From contig JACRAM010000100.1 of NCBI GenBank assembly GCA_016213405.1, forward strand, positions 1 through 64,000: a stretch of DNA of 64,000 bases. The letters are read 5' to 3'. Shown here one piece after another: positions 23,815 through 47,039 of this stretch. The stretch's first letter is position 1, and each line of letters starts with the position of its first letter. Both the position numbers and the translations under genes were made by a program. Source of the stretch: Bacteroidota bacterium. GTDB taxonomy: Bacteria > Bacteroidota > Bacteroidia > Palsa-948. Under the pieces are notes generated by a model. That model saw nothing but the letters and a program-made list of their open reading frames with translations. It was not told the DNA's origin and did not search any database.

Positions 23815-25848
23815 ATGAAAAAAATATTTTCCCACCGCCCTAAACCCCGTAGGATTAGAATTATCCAACGGGGTAAAGGGTGCTATAGATTTTTTGTATT
23901 TCTTCCGCCAGTTGGCGGATTGGTTCTACTTCTCTTTCCATTTAACTTAGGAAGCGCAATCATTCGGCAGGATGCAGCTCAAACCAAATCATCACCCAAA
24001 AAATTTCCGCAGGGATATTTTGTTGAGCCCACCGATTCTTCGCTGAGCATTGCCGGAAACTTCGGGGAGATACGTCCCAATCATTTTCATGCAGGCATAG
24101 ATATTAAAACGGGTGGGAGAGAAGGCGCTTTCATTTATGCCGCAGCCGATGGGTATGTGTCGCGCATAAAAATTTCTCCATGGGGATATGGCAAGTGTAT
24201 TTACATCACGCATCCGAATGGATATGTTACTGTTTACGGACATCTTCAGCGATTGTACGGAAAGATTGCCAAGTACCTGGAACTGGAACAGTACCGGTTG
24301 GAGCAATATGAGGTGGAACTTTTTCCTGATTCAAATTTACTGAGAGTGAAACAATGCGACACGGTTGCCATTTCAGGAAACACAGGTGGCTCGCAATCTC
24401 CGCATCTGCATTTTGAAATCCGCGATGCGGTAACAGAGAACGCGTATAACCCGTTTCTTTTTGGATTCAGGATACATGATACCGTTCCCCCAAAACTAAT
24501 GACGCTTGCCATTTACCCCGTTGAACATCCGTCCTACGGGGTTTATCCTGCGAATGATTCAAGTTCGGTGAATGGAAAAAATGTTCCGAAGAAAATAAAA
24601 GTTTACCCCGTTGGACAAGGTCAAAAGTCCTACGGGGTTTATGGAAGTAAGGGCAAATACAAACTTTCTTCGGCTGAAAAAATAACTGTGAGCGGTGATA
24701 TCGGCTTTGGAATTGAAACGTATGATTATGCCAACATTAAAGAAGCGGGAAAACTGGGAGCATACTCAGTTGATTTATACATTGACGGACATCGGATTTA
24801 TTATCACGAGCTGAACGAAATTTCTTTTGACGAATCCCGCTATGTAAATTCCCTCATTGATTATGCCGAAGAAGCAAAGAGCAATAAGGAAATTCAGAAA
24901 TGTTTTCGTGAAGAGAACAATATGCTTTCTATTTATCAGTGCATGGTGAATGAAGGGTTGTTTCGGTTTGATGACTCGCTTTCTCATCCGGTGAAGTTTG
25001 TGGTAAAAGATTTTTTCGGGAACACTTCAAGTTTGGAGTTCAAAGTTCGGAGTTCGGAGAAGAAAATTAAAACACTCCCAACTCCCAACTCCCAACTCCC
25101 AACTAAAATGAAATGCTCTGACCTTAACAAATACGAAACCGAAAACATAAAAATCGAAATTTCTCCCTGTGCATTGTATTCAGATATTGATTTTGATTAT
25201 TCCATGAGCAAGGATACGCTGCCCGGAACTTTTTCTCCGGTTCACACCATTCACAAAGAAGTGGTGCCCTTGCAAGTCAACTATTCTCTTTCTATAAAAA
25301 CAAAATATCTTTCTAAAAACCTTCAGTCAAAAGCTACCATTGTTTTGCTGGATGGGAAGAATAATATGACGGATCAGAAGGGCAGCCCATCCCTAACCCT
25401 TCCCGAAGGGAAGGGAACTGCACGCCCAAGTTCTCCCCCTTCGGGGGAGTTAGTGGGGGCATTGTGGCTCACCACCCAAACCCGCTACTTCGGGCGTTTT
25501 ACGGTTGCGCTTGATACGGTTGCTCCCACCATCAAGCCATACAATATTTATAATGGCAAGAACATGGCAAAGGCAAAAACAATTTCCATTATCATTTCAG
25601 ATAACCTCACAGGAATTAAATCATATCGCGCCACCATTGACGGCAAATGGGTGCTGATGGAATACGAACCGAAGAAGGCGTTGTTGTTTTATGAATTTCA
25701 GACCCCCACTCTTATCTCCCCCAAAGGGGGAGAGGCTCCTTCCTCCCGACAAGTCGGGACGGGGGAAGGGGTGGCACACACCTTCGTTCTCACTGTTACT
25801 GACGGAAAAAATAATGTCAGCACTTACAAGGTAGAGTTTGTGAGGTGA
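23815..25848 (+). CDS. M23 family metallopeptidase with inserted repeat elements
   Basis: A large LytM-type peptidase (677 residues from the ATG at 23815; an upstream in-frame start at 23752 would overlap the divergent promoter). The catalytic domain (about residues 85-235) has the zinc motifs HFHAGIDIK and HLHFEIRD. Such enzymes cut peptidoglycan cross-links outside the inner membrane. The rest is beta-rich linker. Repeat elements interrupt it in frame at 23844-23874, 24514-24545, 24604-24641, 25029-25105, 25381-25466 and 25701-25777, giving peptides such as TLPTPNSQLPT and SPSLTLPEGKG. The hydrophobic N-terminal anchor itself contains a CCGCCAGTTGGCGG palindrome. Confidence 0.88.
   Translation: MKKIFSHRPKPRRIRIIQRGKGCYRFFVFLPPVGGLVLLLFPFNLGSAIIRQDAAQTKSSPKKFPQGYFVEPTDSSLSIAGNFGEIRPNHFHAGIDIKTGGREGAFIYAAADGYVSRIKISPWGYGKCIYITHPNGYVTVYGHLQRLYGKIAKYLELEQYRLEQYEVELFPDSNLLRVKQCDTVAISGNTGGSQSPHLHFEIRDAVTENAYNPFLFGFRIHDTVPPKLMTLAIYPVEHPSYGVYPANDSSSVNGKNVPKKIKVYPVGQGQKSYGVYGSKGKYKLSSAEKITVSGDIGFGIETYDYANIKEAGKLGAYSVDLYIDGHRIYYHELNEISFDESRYVNSLIDYAEEAKSNKEIQKCFREENNMLSIYQCMVNEGLFRFDDSLSHPVKFVVKDFFGNTSSLEFKVRSSEKKIKTLPTPNSQLPTKMKCSDLNKYETENIKIEISPCALYSDIDFDYSMSKDTLPGTFSPVHTIHKEVVPLQVNYSLSIKTKYLSKNLQSKATIVLLDGKNNMTDQKGSPSLTLPEGKGTARPSSPPSGELVGALWLTTQTRYFGRFTVALDTVAPTIKPYNIYNGKNMAKAKTISIIISDNLTGIKSYRATIDGKWVLMEYEPKKALLFYEFQTPTLISPKGGEAPSSRQVGTGEGVAHTFVLTVTDGKNNVSTYKVEFVR
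23844..23874. repeat. Class B element inside the M23 N-terminus
   Basis: ACCCCGTAGGATTAG and TTATCCAACGGGGT form inverted arms. The same CCCCGTTGGA/TCCAACGGGG or CCCCGTAGGA/TCCTACGGGG pattern recurs at 24514, 24604, 26963, 27045 and 38452. Confidence 0.75.
24514..24641. repeat. Two class B elements in frame in the M23 gene
   Basis: Two copies (24514-24545 and 24604-24641) each start TACCCCGTTG and end CCTACGGGGTTTAT. Each therefore encodes the same ends, YPV at one side and SYGVY at the other, with different loops. Confidence 0.8.
25029..25105. repeat. Low-complexity inverted element in the M23 gene
   Basis: The left arm iterates GTTCGGAG-type steps and the right arm iterates CCCAACT steps. 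They are roughly complementary and separated by an A-rich centre. A related element sits in truA at 43105-43192. Confidence 0.7.
25381..25466. repeat. Class A compound element in the M23 gene
   Basis: Two successive hairpins (CCCTTCCCGAAGGGAAGGG and CTCCCCCTTCGGGGGAG) with flanking pyrimidine-rich and G-rich ends. Read in frame as SPSLTLPEGKG and PSSPPSGELVG. Confidence 0.8.
25701..25777. repeat. Class A compound element in the M23 gene, second copy
   Basis: Hairpin CTCCCCCAAAGGGGGAG followed by a TCCCGACAAGTCGGGA palindrome and a GGGGGAAGGGGTGG tail; read in frame as LISPKGGEAPSSRQVGTGEG. Confidence 0.8.
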
Positions 25849-33194: not shown

Positions 33195-33262
33195 ATGAAG
33201 CCCCTCTCCATCTCTTCCCATAGGGAAGAAGGAAGGAAAAGAAACAAAGACATAATACAACC

Positions 33263-33700
33263 ATGAAGATGAAAAAAATAGTTCTCAGCTTAGCTTTCAC
33301 ATTAATTATTCTCCCTTCCCTTTGGGAAGGGTCGGGGATGGGTTTACACGCGCAGTGCGATACCATCGCTTCCATTTGTGCGAAGCATATCATGTCGCCC
33401 TACATTTCTGACGGACAACAATACCGCGCGCTTCTGCTTTCTGATCAGAATGCGGAATTTCATACCACATTTTATGGCGGAGGAACGTATCGCATCGCTG
33501 CCTGCACTGGCTTGAAAGATGGCAATCTTATTTTTTCAGTGTTTGATGAAGAGCGCAATCTTCTTTTTACAAATAAGGAATATAGAAATGCTTCTTACTG
33601 GGATTTTAAAGTGACTTCAACACTGGATGTAATTCTTGAAGCGACTCTCGGAGGCGCCCAGTCAGGATGTGCGGTAGTATTAATCGGCTTTAAACAATAA
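33263..33700 (+). CDS. Small secreted protein with a repeat-derived signal peptide
   Basis: A 145-residue protein. The signal peptide is unusual: MKMKKIVLSLAFTLII is followed by LPSLWEGSGMG, encoded by a class A hairpin at 33311-33342, before the cleavage-like LHAQC. The mature part (about 32-145) is beta-rich with a Gly-rich FYGGGTYRIAACTG and the end SGCAVVLIGFKQ. I do not recognise the family. It is probably co-transcribed with the lipoprotein upstream; the gap between them (33197-33245) holds a further class A-like hairpin. Confidence 0.65.
   Translation: MKMKKIVLSLAFTLIILPSLWEGSGMGLHAQCDTIASICAKHIMSPYISDGQQYRALLLSDQNAEFHTTFYGGGTYRIAACTGLKDGNLIFSVFDEERNLLFTNKEYRNASYWDFKVTSTLDVILEATLGGAQSGCAVVLIGFKQ
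33311..33342. repeat. Class A element inside a signal peptide
   Basis: CTCCCTTCCCTTTGGGAAGG plus GTCGGGGATGGG. The hairpin is read as LPSLWEGSGMG in the signal peptide of the 145-residue protein. Confidence 0.8.
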
Positions 33701-42587: not shown

Positions 42588-43469
42588 CTAAACTAACTGC
42601 CACTCTTTCTCCGCAGTATTTTGAAAGATGGCAGAAAATTCAGTTCGTGCAGGAATATCTAAGAAAGGATAAACAACTTTAGAAAGATAAAGCCCTTGCG
42701 GATAGGCGAATTCAAGATTGGATTGTGATTCTTTTTTGATTAAATAGTTTTCAAACTCATCAACAGAAATTTCATTCGTTCCGACTTTCAGAAGTTTGGC
42801 TACAATCGCCCGAATCATTCCGTGCAAAAACCGGTCGGAAGAAATTTGAAAGCGAAGTTTATCCCCTTTGCTATCACAAAATAATTTTGCGGAAGAAATA
42901 GTGCAATGCGTGTGCTTGTATTGGTCGGGAGATTTGCAGAGCGCGCGGTAGTCTGTATGTTTTTTGAGAAGTGAAACTGCTTCTTTCATTTTATCTAAGT
43001 TCAAGTTCTTTTCTAAATAAAATGAACTAACGTTGCTGAGGAAAGGGTCTTTATATGTGTGAATGAAGTAATCGTAGGTTCTTTGTTTGGCGTCATACTG
43101 CGCGTGTGGAAGTGCGGAGTTCGGAGTGTGGAGTTTGGAGTTGGGAGTTTGGAGTTGGAGGTTTTCTCCGACCTCCGTACTCCCAGCTCTCATCTCAATT
43201 ATATCAAAAATGGCAATATCGGCAGGCAGCATTTTGTTTAAGCGAAACAGTAAATCGAAATCCCATTTCTCTTTTATATCTGCATGAAAAAAATATTGGC
43301 TGGCGTGCACTTGTGCGTCTGTTCGCCCACAACCTAAAATGGTGGTTGGCTCTTTTAATATTTTGCTGAGGTTTTCTTCCAGCACTTGCTGAATGCTCAT
43401 AAACTCCGATTGCCTTTGCCAGCCATGGTAATGGAAGCCGTTATAACCGATATGGAAGAAATATCTCAA
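42588..43469 (-). CDS. truA: tRNA pseudouridine synthase A
   Basis: A 293-residue enzyme that makes pseudouridine at tRNA positions 38-40. The catalytic Asp is D51 in CGRTDAQVHA; RTYDYFIHTY and ISSDRFLHGMIRAIV are typical. A low-complexity insert (about residues 95-121, containing LQTPNSKLHTPNSAL) comes from the inverted repeat element at 43105-43192. It sits in the loop before HAQYDAKQRTYDY, so the active site should survive. Promoter TAACTTTG at 43498-43491. Confidence 0.93.
   Translation of the reverse strand: MRYFFHIGYNGFHYHGWQRQSEFMSIQQVLEENLSKILKEPTTILGCGRTDAQVHASQYFFHADIKEKWDFDLLFRLNKMLPADIAIFDIIEMRAGSTEVGENLQLQTPNSKLHTPNSALPHAQYDAKQRTYDYFIHTYKDPFLSNVSSFYLEKNLNLDKMKEAVSLLKKHTDYRALCKSPDQYKHTHCTISSAKLFCDSKGDKLRFQISSDRFLHGMIRAIVAKLLKVGTNEISVDEFENYLIKKESQSNLEFAYPQGLYLSKVVYPFLDIPARTEFSAIFQNTAEKEWQLV
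43105..43192. repeat. Low-complexity inverted element inside truA
   Basis: The left arm iterates GGAGTTCGGAGTGTGGAG-like steps and the right arm contains CTCCGACCTCCGTACTCCC. The arms pair imperfectly. Related to the element at 25029-25105. Confidence 0.75.
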
Positions 43470-43541: not shown

Positions 43542-44555
43542 ATGACTCATCAGGATATCATAGAAATCAAAGAGCTTCTTTCTACCCGGAAAAGCATTGT
43601 GATTGTTACGCACAAAAATCCTGATGGGGATGCGATGGGTTCTTCGCTGGGTTTGTATAATTATTTATTGAGAAAGAAGCATCGCGTAAAAGTTGTTACG
43701 CCAAATGGTTACCCAACTTTTCTGCAATGGCTTCCGGGAGATGATAAGGTAATTGAACATTCTGAAAATCCGGAGAGGGCAGAGGCGGTAATTAAAAAAG
43801 CCGATATTATTTTTGCTCTTGATTTTAACGCGCTGAGGCGCATTGGTGATGTTGGAAAACTGGTGAAGAAAGCAAAGGCGAAAAAAATTCTGATTGACCA
43901 CCATCTTCAGCCCGAAAAATTTGCGCATTACATGATGTGCGATAAAAAATCCTGCTCCACTTCACAACTTGTTTTTGATTTCATTGCACTTCTTGGAGAT
44001 AAAAAATTTGTTAATAGAAAAGTGGCGAATTGTTTGTACACGGGCATTATGACGGATACGCTCAACTTTAAGATTGCCACCACTTCTGCGCACACTCACC
44101 ATATTGTTGCCGAACTTATTGGAGCAGGCGCGCAAAATATGCTGGCATACTCCAACGTTTTCGACACGTACTCAGAAGACCGTTTGCGTTTGCTCGGTCA
44201 TTGCCTGGGGAAAGAAATGAAAGTGCTTCATGAATATAATGCAGCGTTTATCGCGCTTTCAAAAAGCGATCTTAAGAAATTTAATTTTCAGAAAGGCGAT
44301 ACGGAAGGATTTGTGAATTACCCGCTCTCCATAGAAGGGATAAAGTTTTCTGCTTTGTTTACTGAAATGCCTGACGAAATAAAAATTTCTTTTCGTTCGA
44401 AAGGCAACTTTGACGTGAATAAATTCGCGCGCAAGCATTTCAACGGAGGCGGCCATGCCAATGCAGCAGGCGGTGAAGCACACAGCTCTCTGGATGAAGC
44501 GGTGACGAAGTTTGTGAGCATACTTGCTGAATACAAAGAACAACTTCTAAAGTAA
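43542..44555 (+). CDS. nrnA: DHH family phosphoesterase, NrnA-like
   Basis: A 337-residue enzyme of the DHH/DHHA1 group that degrades short oligoribonucleotides and may cleave pAp or cyclic dinucleotide products. Motifs: VTHKNPDGDAMGSS, FALDFNALRRIG, LIDHHLQPEKF and the DHHA1 signature FNGGGHANAAGG. I chose the ATG at 43542 because the upstream in-frame TTG (43524) overlaps the promoter -7 element. The next gene starts on the base after its stop codon. Confidence 0.93.
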   Translation: MTHQDIIEIKELLSTRKSIVIVTHKNPDGDAMGSSLGLYNYLLRKKHRVKVVTPNGYPTFLQWLPGDDKVIEHSENPERAEAVIKKADIIFALDFNALRRIGDVGKLVKKAKAKKILIDHHLQPEKFAHYMMCDKKSCSTSQLVFDFIALLGDKKFVNRKVANCLYTGIMTDTLNFKIATTSAHTHHIVAELIGAGAQNMLAYSNVFDTYSEDRLRLLGHCLGKEMKVLHEYNAAFIALSKSDLKKFNFQKGDTEGFVNYPLSIEGIKFSALFTEMPDEIKISFRSKGNFDVNKFARKHFNGGGHANAAGGEAHSSLDEAVTKFVSILAEYKEQLLK

Positions 44556-45146
44556 ATGACAAAGCCCCTCCTGAATCCTCCCCGTTGGGGAGGACTTTTA
44601 ATTAGTGTATTGCATTCTCCCTCCCCAATGGGGTGGGCAGGGGTGGGGCTTCTTTTTCTTTTTCTTTTTTCCTGCGGAACCGAAAACGTTAAACCAAAAC
44701 AAAAAGCTAATCCATCCCAATTCAAAGAACAGTTAGTGAAAGTGAACAAATACGAAATGGAAAAAGAATCAGATGAGATAAATCAATACATAGCGCGCCA
44801 CAACTGGACTATGGAAAAAACAGGAACGGGATTGCGTTATCTTTTTCTGAAACAGGGAACAGGCGATTCTGCCCGCTCTGGCGATAATGTGAAAGTGAAT
44901 TATAAAATCTCTTTGTTTGACGGAACAGAATGCTATTCCTCCGACAAAGACGGAGCATACGAATTCAAAGTGGAAGGCGATGCGATTGAGAGCGGTCTGC
45001 ACGAAGCGATTCAATTGATGTGTGTTGGAGATAAAGCAAAATTCATTCTGCCTTCTTACATGGCGCATGGCTTGCACGGGGATGATGCAAGCATTCCGCC
45101 TCTTTCAACGATAGTAGTAGATTTAGAACTTTTAGAGATAAGATAA
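44556..45146 (+). CDS. FKBP-type peptidyl-prolyl isomerase lipoprotein, GldI-like
   Basis: A 196-residue lipoprotein. The FKBP domain (about 90-196) has RYLFLKQGTGDSARSGD, a shortened VKVNYKISLFDGTECYS, AIQLMCVGDKAKFILPSYMAHG and a closing VVDLELLEI. It lies immediately behind the NrnA-like gene, the usual neighbourhood of gldI, whose product is needed for gliding motility in Flavobacterium. The signal peptide is abnormal: its start codon and first 32 residues (TKPLLNPPRWGG onward) are encoded by a class A repeat, and only then comes VGLLFLFLFSC with the lipobox Cys. Confidence 0.85.
   Translation: MTKPLLNPPRWGGLLISVLHSPSPMGWAGVGLLFLFLFSCGTENVKPKQKANPSQFKEQLVKVNKYEMEKESDEINQYIARHNWTMEKTGTGLRYLFLKQGTGDSARSGDNVKVNYKISLFDGTECYSSDKDGAYEFKVEGDAIESGLHEAIQLMCVGDKAKFILPSYMAHGLHGDDASIPPLSTIVVDLELLEIR
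44558..44653. repeat. Class A element forming a signal peptide, copy 1
   Basis: A 96-base element with AATCCTCCCCGTTGGGGAGG as the left hairpin and a CTCCCTCCCCAATGGGGTGG right hairpin. It is matched over its full length by 45151-45246 with about ten differences. Confidence 0.9.
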
Positions 45147-45148
45147 AA

Positions 45149-46096
45149 ATGACAAAGCCCCTCCTAAATCCTCCCCGTTGGGGAGGACTTTTAATTAATG
45201 TATTGCATTCTCCCTCCCTAACGGGGAGGGTTGGGGTGGGGCTTCTCTTCTTTTTATTTTTCTCCTGCAGCGATTCTCCCTTTCCTGATTTCACAAAAAC
45301 AAAAAACGGGCTTTACTACAAACTCATAGATATTGGCGAGAGCGATAAAAGAGCGAAGCCGGGGGATTATGTAACCGTTCAGATGATTATTAAATCAGAA
45401 AAGGATTCTATTCTTTATGATACAAGAAGAATCGGGTTGGACGGATCAGTGACATTCCTGCTTACTACTCCCCAGCAGGAAAAAGATTACCGTGAAGGAT
45501 TTCAATATCTCTCCGAAGGAGACAGCGCGGCTTTCATCACGGATGCCTATGCTTTCTACATGAAGAAAAATAATAAGCCCGTTCCGATGGGAATGAAAAT
45601 GGAAAGCATTATTAAAGTGCAAGCGCGTGTTTTGAAAATCCGCACGCCAGAGGAACACGCAAAAGACATGCTCATTGAAAAAGGAAAACTCGAACAGGCG
45701 GAATTCGAAGAAAAAAAAATCCTTGATAAATACATGGCGGACAGTTCCATTCCGGCTCAGCTGATTGGAAACGGAATGTATTACATAAAGCTTCAGGAAG
45801 GAAAAGGATTAACCCCCGATTCCGGTAGTGTTGCTCTTCTGAATTATCGGGGAAGTTTTCTGAACGGAAGATGTTTTGATTTCTTTTTTGAAAGCCAGCC
45901 CTTCGAATATATGGTAGGGCAGGAAGATCAATTAATCAAAGGTTTAGAGATAGGAGTTCGCAGGATGCACGAGGGTGAAAAAGCCAAATTTATTATACCT
46001 TCGCACCTCGCTTTTGGAAGCAGCGGTTCATCCACAGAAATTGTTCCGCCATTCACAACAGTGATCTATGAAGTTGAATTATTAAAAGTGCAATAA
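45149..46096 (+). CDS. FKBP-type peptidyl-prolyl isomerase lipoprotein, second of four
   Basis: A 315-residue lipoprotein with two FKBP-like halves. Residues about 50-150 form a degenerate domain (YYKLIDIGESDKRAKPGDYV); residues about 205-315 form the second (YYIKLQEGKGLTPDSGSV, RRMHEGEKAKFIIPSHLAFG, VIYEVELLKV). Several active-site aromatics are missing in the first. As in the gene before, the start and the first 30 residues come from a 96-base repeat element; the lipobox is FFLFFSC. Two bases separate it from the upstream gene. Confidence 0.83.
   Translation: MTKPLLNPPRWGGLLINVLHSPSLTGRVGVGLLFFLFFSCSDSPFPDFTKTKNGLYYKLIDIGESDKRAKPGDYVTVQMIIKSEKDSILYDTRRIGLDGSVTFLLTTPQQEKDYREGFQYLSEGDSAAFITDAYAFYMKKNNKPVPMGMKMESIIKVQARVLKIRTPEEHAKDMLIEKGKLEQAEFEEKKILDKYMADSSIPAQLIGNGMYYIKLQEGKGLTPDSGSVALLNYRGSFLNGRCFDFFFESQPFEYMVGQEDQLIKGLEIGVRRMHEGEKAKFIIPSHLAFGSSGSSTEIVPPFTTVIYEVELLKVQ
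45151..45246. repeat. Class A element forming a signal peptide, copy 2
   Basis: Same element as 44558-44653 with equal length and the same relation to the start codon. The sequences after the two copies diverge at once, so the match is confined to the element and the hydrophobic region. Confidence 0.9.
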
Positions 46097-46106
46097 AACA
46101 AAATGT

Positions 46107-47039
46107 ATGAAAAAATATTTCGGACTTAAGTTGCTTGCCTTCTGCCTTCTGCTTTCTGCCTTTTGCTTTCTTTTTTCCTGTTCGCACTCTGAGTTTTCCG
46201 ATTATGAAAAAACAGAATCGGGATTGATGTATAAATTCCACAAACACGGAACCGATACGCTGCATGCCCAATATGAAAATGTAGTGCGGGTAAAAATGAA
46301 CAAGCGCTTTAACGATTCTCTCCTTGAATCTACCAACAGCATGATCCCTGAAGGAATTGAGCAGTATCTCCGAAAACCAGCTTTCCCCGGAGCGATTGAA
46401 GAAGGAATTCATATGATGGTGATTGGCGACAGCGCAACTTTTCTCATTAGCACCGATTCTATCAACAAATACTACCCTCCAAAAGATTCAACAAAAATTT
46501 TCGAACCAAATAAATATCTCGCGTTTGATATTAAATTAGAAAACATAAAAACGATGGAAGAAGTCAGAGCAGAAGAAGAACAAAGAAGAAAAGAGTTTGT
46601 TGCAGAGCGAAAAGAGAAAGGACCTAAAGAGCTTAGTCAATATATTGCAGATAATCACATTGAGGCGAAACCAACTGCCAGCGGATTGTATTTGATAGCA
46701 AAAGAAAAAGGAAAAGGCGCGATGCCAAAAGATGAGGATACGGTGGTTGTTCATTACACCGGAACTTTTTTAGATGGAACCATTTTTGATTCTTCCGTGA
46801 AACGAAACCAGCCGTTTTCTTTTGTAGTGAACGATAAAGGTAGTATGGGAGTAATCCCCGGCTGGAACGAAGCCATCAAGATGATGAATAAAGGAACCAT
46901 CGCAACTGTTATTCTTCCACATTCGCTTGCATATGATTCAGTGGGCGTTCAAAACCCACAGTCCGGCAAATATTTTATTCCACCTTACTCTCCTCTTAAA
47001 TTCGATATTCAATTAATAGACATTAAATCAAAAAAATAA
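46107..47039 (+). CDS. FKBP-type peptidyl-prolyl isomerase lipoprotein, third of four
   Basis: A 310-residue lipoprotein (lipobox FLFSC near residue 25). An N-terminal FKBP-like half lacks most catalytic residues. A central charged helix (about 148-182, [20 protein letters not shown]) links it to a canonical C-terminal FKBP domain (about 193-310) with [29 protein letters not shown] and a final FDIQLIDI. The signal peptide core ([17 protein letters not shown]) is encoded by an iterated TGCCTTCTGCTTTC repeat. It probably acts on periplasmic or outer membrane proteins. Confidence 0.88.
46131..46180 (+). repeat. Iterated CTTCTGC repeat encoding a signal peptide core
   Basis: TTGCCTTCTGCCTTCTGC-type steps of about 7 bases, C/T-rich, translate to hydrophobic Leu/Cys/Phe residues. 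It has no inverted partner nearby. Confidence 0.6.

Follow-up and report, generated by a model that had tools for sequence, protein, structure and literature searches.

In-frame palindromic elements in the leaders of two adjacent FKBP-type lipoprotein genes of a Bacteroidota bacterium

The window analyzed here comprises 64,000 nucleotides of contig JACRAM010000100.1 (positions 1 to 64,000) from the Bacteroidota bacterium assembly GCA_016213405.1, a genome of 3.65 Mb in 127 contigs that is called G000 below where it has to be told apart from its congeners. Two neighboring genes on the plus strand, at 44,556-45,146 and 45,149-46,096, encode proteins of 196 and 315 AA, in both of which the Pfam scan detected an FKBP_C domain (PF00254; 6.3e-16 and 2.8e-21). 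The first protein scores 93.2 bits against the TIGR03516 GldI model, under the curated cut-off of 157.6, and its gene is therefore named GldI-like and no further; the second gene is referred to as FKBP2. Both open frames start 6 nt 5' of a copy of the same repeat and run through it in the same frame, with the lipobox cysteine at residue 40. The stretches 44,554-44,675 and 45,147-45,268 are 89% identical over 122 nt, bearing out the initial annotation, which had placed two copies of one repeat at the heads of these genes; as it had also reported, the sequences right after the lipobox cysteine are unrelated, and the FKBP domains are about 31% identical. In the cluster's third FKBP lipoprotein gene the leader is built of another, simple repeat (46,107-46,181), and similar simple-repeat leaders are found in congeners (IVYCLLFIVYCLL, MYDLRCTIF).

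The element proper is a 90-nt palindrome, lying at 44,562-44,651 in the GldI-like gene (copy 1) and at 45,155-45,244 in FKBP2 (copy 2), both on the plus strand, and in each gene it encodes residues 3-32 (in copy 1, KPLLNPPRWGGLLISVLHSPSPMGWAGVGL). The two copies align with 83 identities, 7 mismatches and no gaps, slightly better than the ten or so differences first estimated. Each consists of two 32-nt arms in inverted orientation, separated by 26 nt; the arms of copy 1, at 44,562-44,593 and 44,620-44,651, are 75% complementary, and those of copy 2, at 45,155-45,186 and 45,213-45,244, are 84% complementary. As RNA, the copies are predicted to fold with -51.4 kcal/mol (z -4.6) and -58.1 kcal/mol (z -8.1), respectively. 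A motif scan located a G-quadruplex motif in each right arm, GGGGTGGGCAGGGGTGGGG at 44,630-44,648 and GGGGAGGGTTGGGGTGGGG at 45,223-45,241, and the left arm of copy 2 contains a perfect mirror repeat, CCCCTCCTAAATCCTCCCC, at 45,155-45,177. The repeat goes far past anything due to chance, the expected number of matches to the left-arm motif in shuffled windows being 0. Terminal inverted repeats of the kind that mark a MITE are thus present in these 32-nt, 75-84% complementary arms; at the tpiA site discussed below no target-site duplication is evident, although the congener flanks there are too diverged for one to be recognized.

Both the start codon and the first 30 or so residues had been credited to the repeat. 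It does encode residues 3-32, but the FKBP2 start codon (45,149-45,151) looks native: this is probable from a comparison of start contexts, the FKBP2 ATG following or overlapping the upstream stop in G000 as it does in G001, G005 and G006. Probably native, too, are the leader tails, LFLFLFS plus the lipobox Cys40 in the GldI-like gene (44,652-44,675) and LFFLFFS plus Cys40 in FKBP2 (45,245-45,268), since element-free congeners have a similar T-rich h-region and lipobox. (The stretch VGLLFLFLFSC, put forward as a normal signal core of 12 residues, is 11 residues long as written.)

That the repeat is a dispersed one, as had been suggested, is clear from the genome search. With one copy as query, 47 BLAST matches were obtained in G000; the arm pattern has 110 matches genome-wide, as against 31 for a reversed control pattern; and a profile built from 15 copies, applied at a threshold of at least 17 bits to the fetched G000 stretches and the window, gave 88 non-overlapping matches. 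In full copies, a left arm (AAGCCCCTCCTAAATCCTCCCC..GGGGAGGACTT) and a right arm enclose a spacer whose length and sequence vary greatly. Subfamilies can be recognized (GGGGAGG, GGGAAGG and others) in which paired changes, judged by eye, preserve the stem. The family is present in all six congeners, and a search over 60 relatives gave matches in 9 of 50 genera. No Rfam family matches the element at or above its gathering score; the best match, mir-188, falls under that score and was rejected as a chance hairpin match. A further full copy lies in frame within a long ORF of the window (25,384-25,460; SPSLTLPEGKGTARPSSPPSGELVG).

Mobilization by a RAYT was considered as well and is unsupported, since none of the eight Y1_Tnp genes of G000 was seen to be directly flanked by the element. 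The nearest elements seen lie some 0.6-3 kb from these genes or within neighboring genes, and the one Y1_Tnp gene that was read completely is bordered by other palindromes. At L121:1420-1975, a RAYT/Y1_Tnp gene with different flanking palindromes (CCCCATGCTTCAGCATGGGG) has an aspartokinase gene on one side and a lysA-like gene on the other; within the lysA-like gene there is another repeat insert (L121:2920-3000).

Open frames longer than 110 codons contain 64 of the 88 profile matches, though a few such frames may be spurious. Twenty proteins were put through a Pfam scan. In aspartokinase, an aminotransferase, LpxK, MurE and IleRS (with two elements), one Pfam match spans the element uninterrupted, while in TIM, TsaE, MiaA, RNase HII and biotin carboxylase the element splits the domain; it lies between domains in MetRS, Pol I and GcvP, and before the first domain in a GyrA-like protein. 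When the genes were aligned with those of G004, G006 and G001, all three congeners had a clean, empty site in tpiA; in murE, rnhB and the aminotransferase gene no element was present in the congeners compared; at lysC and metG, G004 has other GC-rich inserts at the same spot. The element is translated in several frames of both strands and is tolerated where almost any sequence works. Two in-frame elements each are carried by IleRS (L135:2510-5965) and by an AspRS-like protein, so identified by eye (L130:3729-5552).

By reading of the profile matches, nine of those in frame lie within signal peptides: the two FKBP leaders, L012, L013, L150, L140, L162, L134:13681 and window position 33,300. L012 is another lipoprotein with the element in its leader (MKNQAPPKSSPLGRTFNSFSFSPSNGRGRGWAFFLLLLFLFSC), in a frame that differs from that of the FKBP pair. 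At 33,195-33,343 the arms bracket a start codon, the left arm being intergenic and the right arm lying within the following gene's signal-peptide sequence (LPSLWEGSGMGLHAQ). Signal peptides make up, by a rough estimate, about 1% of coding DNA, and relative to that figure the copies look to be in excess there. The flanks of elements outside signal peptides are T-rich in the outward direction on both sides, with 0.44 T in the first 12 nt versus 0.296 expected, a value reached in 0 of 2000 random sets. This matches the passage from A-rich to T-rich sequence at the starts of signal-peptide genes and could make leaders hot spots; alternatively, the ends of the element could be longer than modelled. 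At empty sites there is a weak A/T trend only, 0.33 versus 0.27 (8 genes).

The leaders of both genes could be read in five congeners (G001, G002, G004, G005 and G006), those of G003 being unreadable. In the comparison of orthologues that the initial annotation had proposed, leaders without the element were seen: in G004 (whose orthologues are 87% and 80% identical), G006, G001 and G002 it is absent from both genes, and its presence is thus derived. G005, on the other hand, has members of the family at both leaders. The copy at its gldI is of the GGGGAGG type and provides, in addition, the stop codon for the gene upstream; the copy at its FKBP2 is of the GGGAAGG type and is translated in a different frame (MKAHPKSFPQGRTLSKLFLFSFPLGRMGWAFCFLLSSC). 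The closest pairs by identity are G000 with G004 and G001 with G005, and since both partners, G004 and G001, are element-free, gain in G000 and in G005 separately is the simpler history, and most likely the true one. The case is strong for FKBP2, where the G005 copy belongs to a different subfamily and is in a different frame; the gldI copy of G005 may go back to an old insertion and be orthologous to copy 1. A history in which the element was ancestral and disappeared from G004, G006, G001 and G002 was rejected, since several losses would be needed and, at FKBP2, a switch of both subfamily and frame. No distant orthologues with an identical N-terminus were found.

The two copies in G000 itself, which lie 593 bp apart, appear to have a closer connection. 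Of 990 pairs of full-length copies only one is more similar, and no other full-length copy has this spacer; AAATGACA precedes the element in both, with ATGACA directly before it, and a similar T-rich tail leads to the Cys codon. They diverge by 7.8%, as compared with 49-64% at fourfold sites between G000 and G004. Because spacer, ATGACA and tail are held in common and the divergence is low, it is probable that one insertion was copied locally between the two genes, by gene conversion or duplication, and the gene conversion that had been offered as one of two possibilities, in the sense of local copying, is the best reading of these common features. The likelier direction would be from FKBP2 to the GldI-like gene, as the position of the FKBP2 start is conserved and the short gap that precedes the gldI start in G004 and G006 is absent in G000. 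It has also to be considered that there were two separate insertions in G000 and no local copying, leaders being hot spots by virtue of their passage from A-rich (ATGAAA..) to T-rich (Phe/Leu codon) DNA. The T-rich outward flanks (0.44 versus 0.296, 0 of 2000 random sets) and the nine in-frame signal-peptide matches are consistent with this, and the different subfamilies in the two G005 genes indicate that double insertion in this pair does happen. It would leave unaccounted for, however, the same spacer, the same length and the same six flanking bases ATGACA in the second most similar pair of all, and the A/T trend at the eight empty sites is weak (0.33 versus 0.27); two separate insertions in G000 are on balance unlikely.

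It has been suspected of many REPs at annotated 5' ends that translation begins downstream of them, so that N-terminal REPs may be non-coding (PMC3733652), and the same could be asked of these two genes. Initiation at an ATG that lies in the right arm of copy 1 would yield MGWAGVGLLFLFLFSC, and gldI of G005 offers MGRAGVGLLFFHFLSC. Such an internal right-arm ATG start is possible for gldI only, though: copy 2 has no in-frame internal ATG, a GTG start there would give MGLLFFLFFSC, with zero positive charge, and the ATG before copy 2 has A-rich surroundings and is conserved in position. Element-encoded residues would remain even with an internal start, while a start wholly downstream of the element would leave no usable leader. 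A downstream start with the element outside the coding part is therefore judged improbable.

As annotated, both leaders have the features expected of a lipoprotein, with a hydrophobic stretch and FSC at residues 38-40. The uncharged runs before the cysteine are 15 and 12 residues long, with 2-3 basic residues upstream, which is within the range of the congener leaders. In both, the element would provide the n-region along with the first part of the h-region. Native and element-derived parts of the h-region are not cleanly separable, and some of the T-rich tail may be the element's own, as element flanks are T-rich everywhere. With the element-encoded residues removed, each leader would be reduced to about 10 residues (MT plus LFLFLFSC); the element-encoded part is thus probably functional and needed now, though many other sequences would serve, examples being the element-free simple-repeat leaders of the congeners and of the third gene of the cluster (46,107). 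In this sense the earlier suggestion of co-option as a secretion signal is partly upheld: the repeat probably does function in the present leaders, but it is not specifically a secretion signal, as many cytoplasmic enzymes hold the family in frame.

A stronger version would have the peptide under selection because it makes a superior or a regulated leader, or the start-proximal hairpin or G-quadruplex regulating translation. The strong hairpin beginning 7 nt into the coding sequence, the G-quadruplex motifs and the presence of the element at both genes in two lineages are in keeping with such a role. Against it, the frames differ between FKBP2 of G000, FKBP2 of G005 and the L012 lipoprotein, so that conservation does not lie in the encoded peptide; the same element is held by many cytoplasmic enzymes, and four congeners do without it at these genes. 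Adaptive co-option of this kind seems very improbable, marginally more so than a downstream start.

The best explanation, to which we assign a probability of roughly 0.77, is that a non-autonomous mobile or formerly mobile palindrome entered the FKBP2 leader, was locally copied to the leader of the GldI-like gene and is translated through in both. The element, two inverted REP-like arms around a variable spacer, would spread in this Bacteroidota genus, with intragenic copies being retained when the frame stays open. One copy would have inserted immediately after the native FKBP2 start codon, taking the place of the n-region and the front half of the h-region; that codon and the hydrophobic tail with its lipobox, also native, would have been retained. 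The altered segment (ATGACA, element and T-rich tail) would then have been copied by local recombination into the GldI-like leader, if the direction given above is correct. Translation would pass through the hairpin, and the element residues would form a long, weakly basic n-region together with the GVGL(L) that opens the h-region, so that Sec, Lgt and LspA could still process the lipoprotein. Mobility, direction of copying, export and lipidation are all proposed here from sequence comparison.

Most of what is known of protein-coding palindromes comes from the reduced intracellular genomes of Rickettsia and Wolbachia. The palindrome load of this 3.65 Mb Bacteroidota genome is comparable, and its congeners provide sites that are empty and sites that were, most likely, independently filled. 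With these, the spread of in-frame repeats, their tolerance at different protein positions and the emergence of new signal peptides become open to study. For annotators there is also the warning that odd leaders such as TKPLLNPPRWGG are repeat-derived. A literature search in which most subscription journals were not covered found no such element described from Bacteroidota.

The nearest parallel by behavior is with the Rickettsia palindromic elements (RPE; Ogata et al. 2000), dispersed palindromes of ~100-150 bp found in frame in many unrelated conserved genes (PMC2229807, PMC10969869, PMC3733652). Like these, the present element is a dispersed palindrome with many copies and several families, in frame in conserved genes that have orthologues without it, and sometimes at N-termini. 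It differs in having a host in a different phylum, in being about 70-125 nt long and GC-rich in an AT-rich genome, with arms of the G-quadruplex type, and in affecting several secretion and lipoprotein leaders. The YPAL/RU-2 MITE of Yersinia, which is part of the predicted signal peptide of YPO1552 (Delihas 2007, in PMC2229807), likewise is fused in frame and forms part of a signal peptide; there a single putative exported protein is concerned, in contrast to two adjacent FKBP-type lipoproteins, and a second lineage at the same genes, in the present case. The REPs and BIMEs associated with RAYT (TnpA-REP), with their GTAG/CGTC REPs, also have inverted arm pairs with a short spacer and are in some cases intragenic (PMC3733652), but they are mostly intergenic; here no GTAG or CGTC foot is apparent, and no Y1_Tnp gene of G000 was seen to have the element directly at its flank. 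More tentatively, at somewhat less than even odds, the family may represent undescribed RPE-like protein-coding palindromes in several subfamilies, with a site preference for passages from A-rich to T-rich DNA that would make signal peptides hot spots, so that lipoprotein leaders would have been rebuilt repeatedly and independently in more than one frame. A different type of repeat (LQTPNSKLHTPNSALPH) is found at 43,060-43,290 of the window, within a minus-strand ORF (42,588-43,469) that is TruA-like in appearance.
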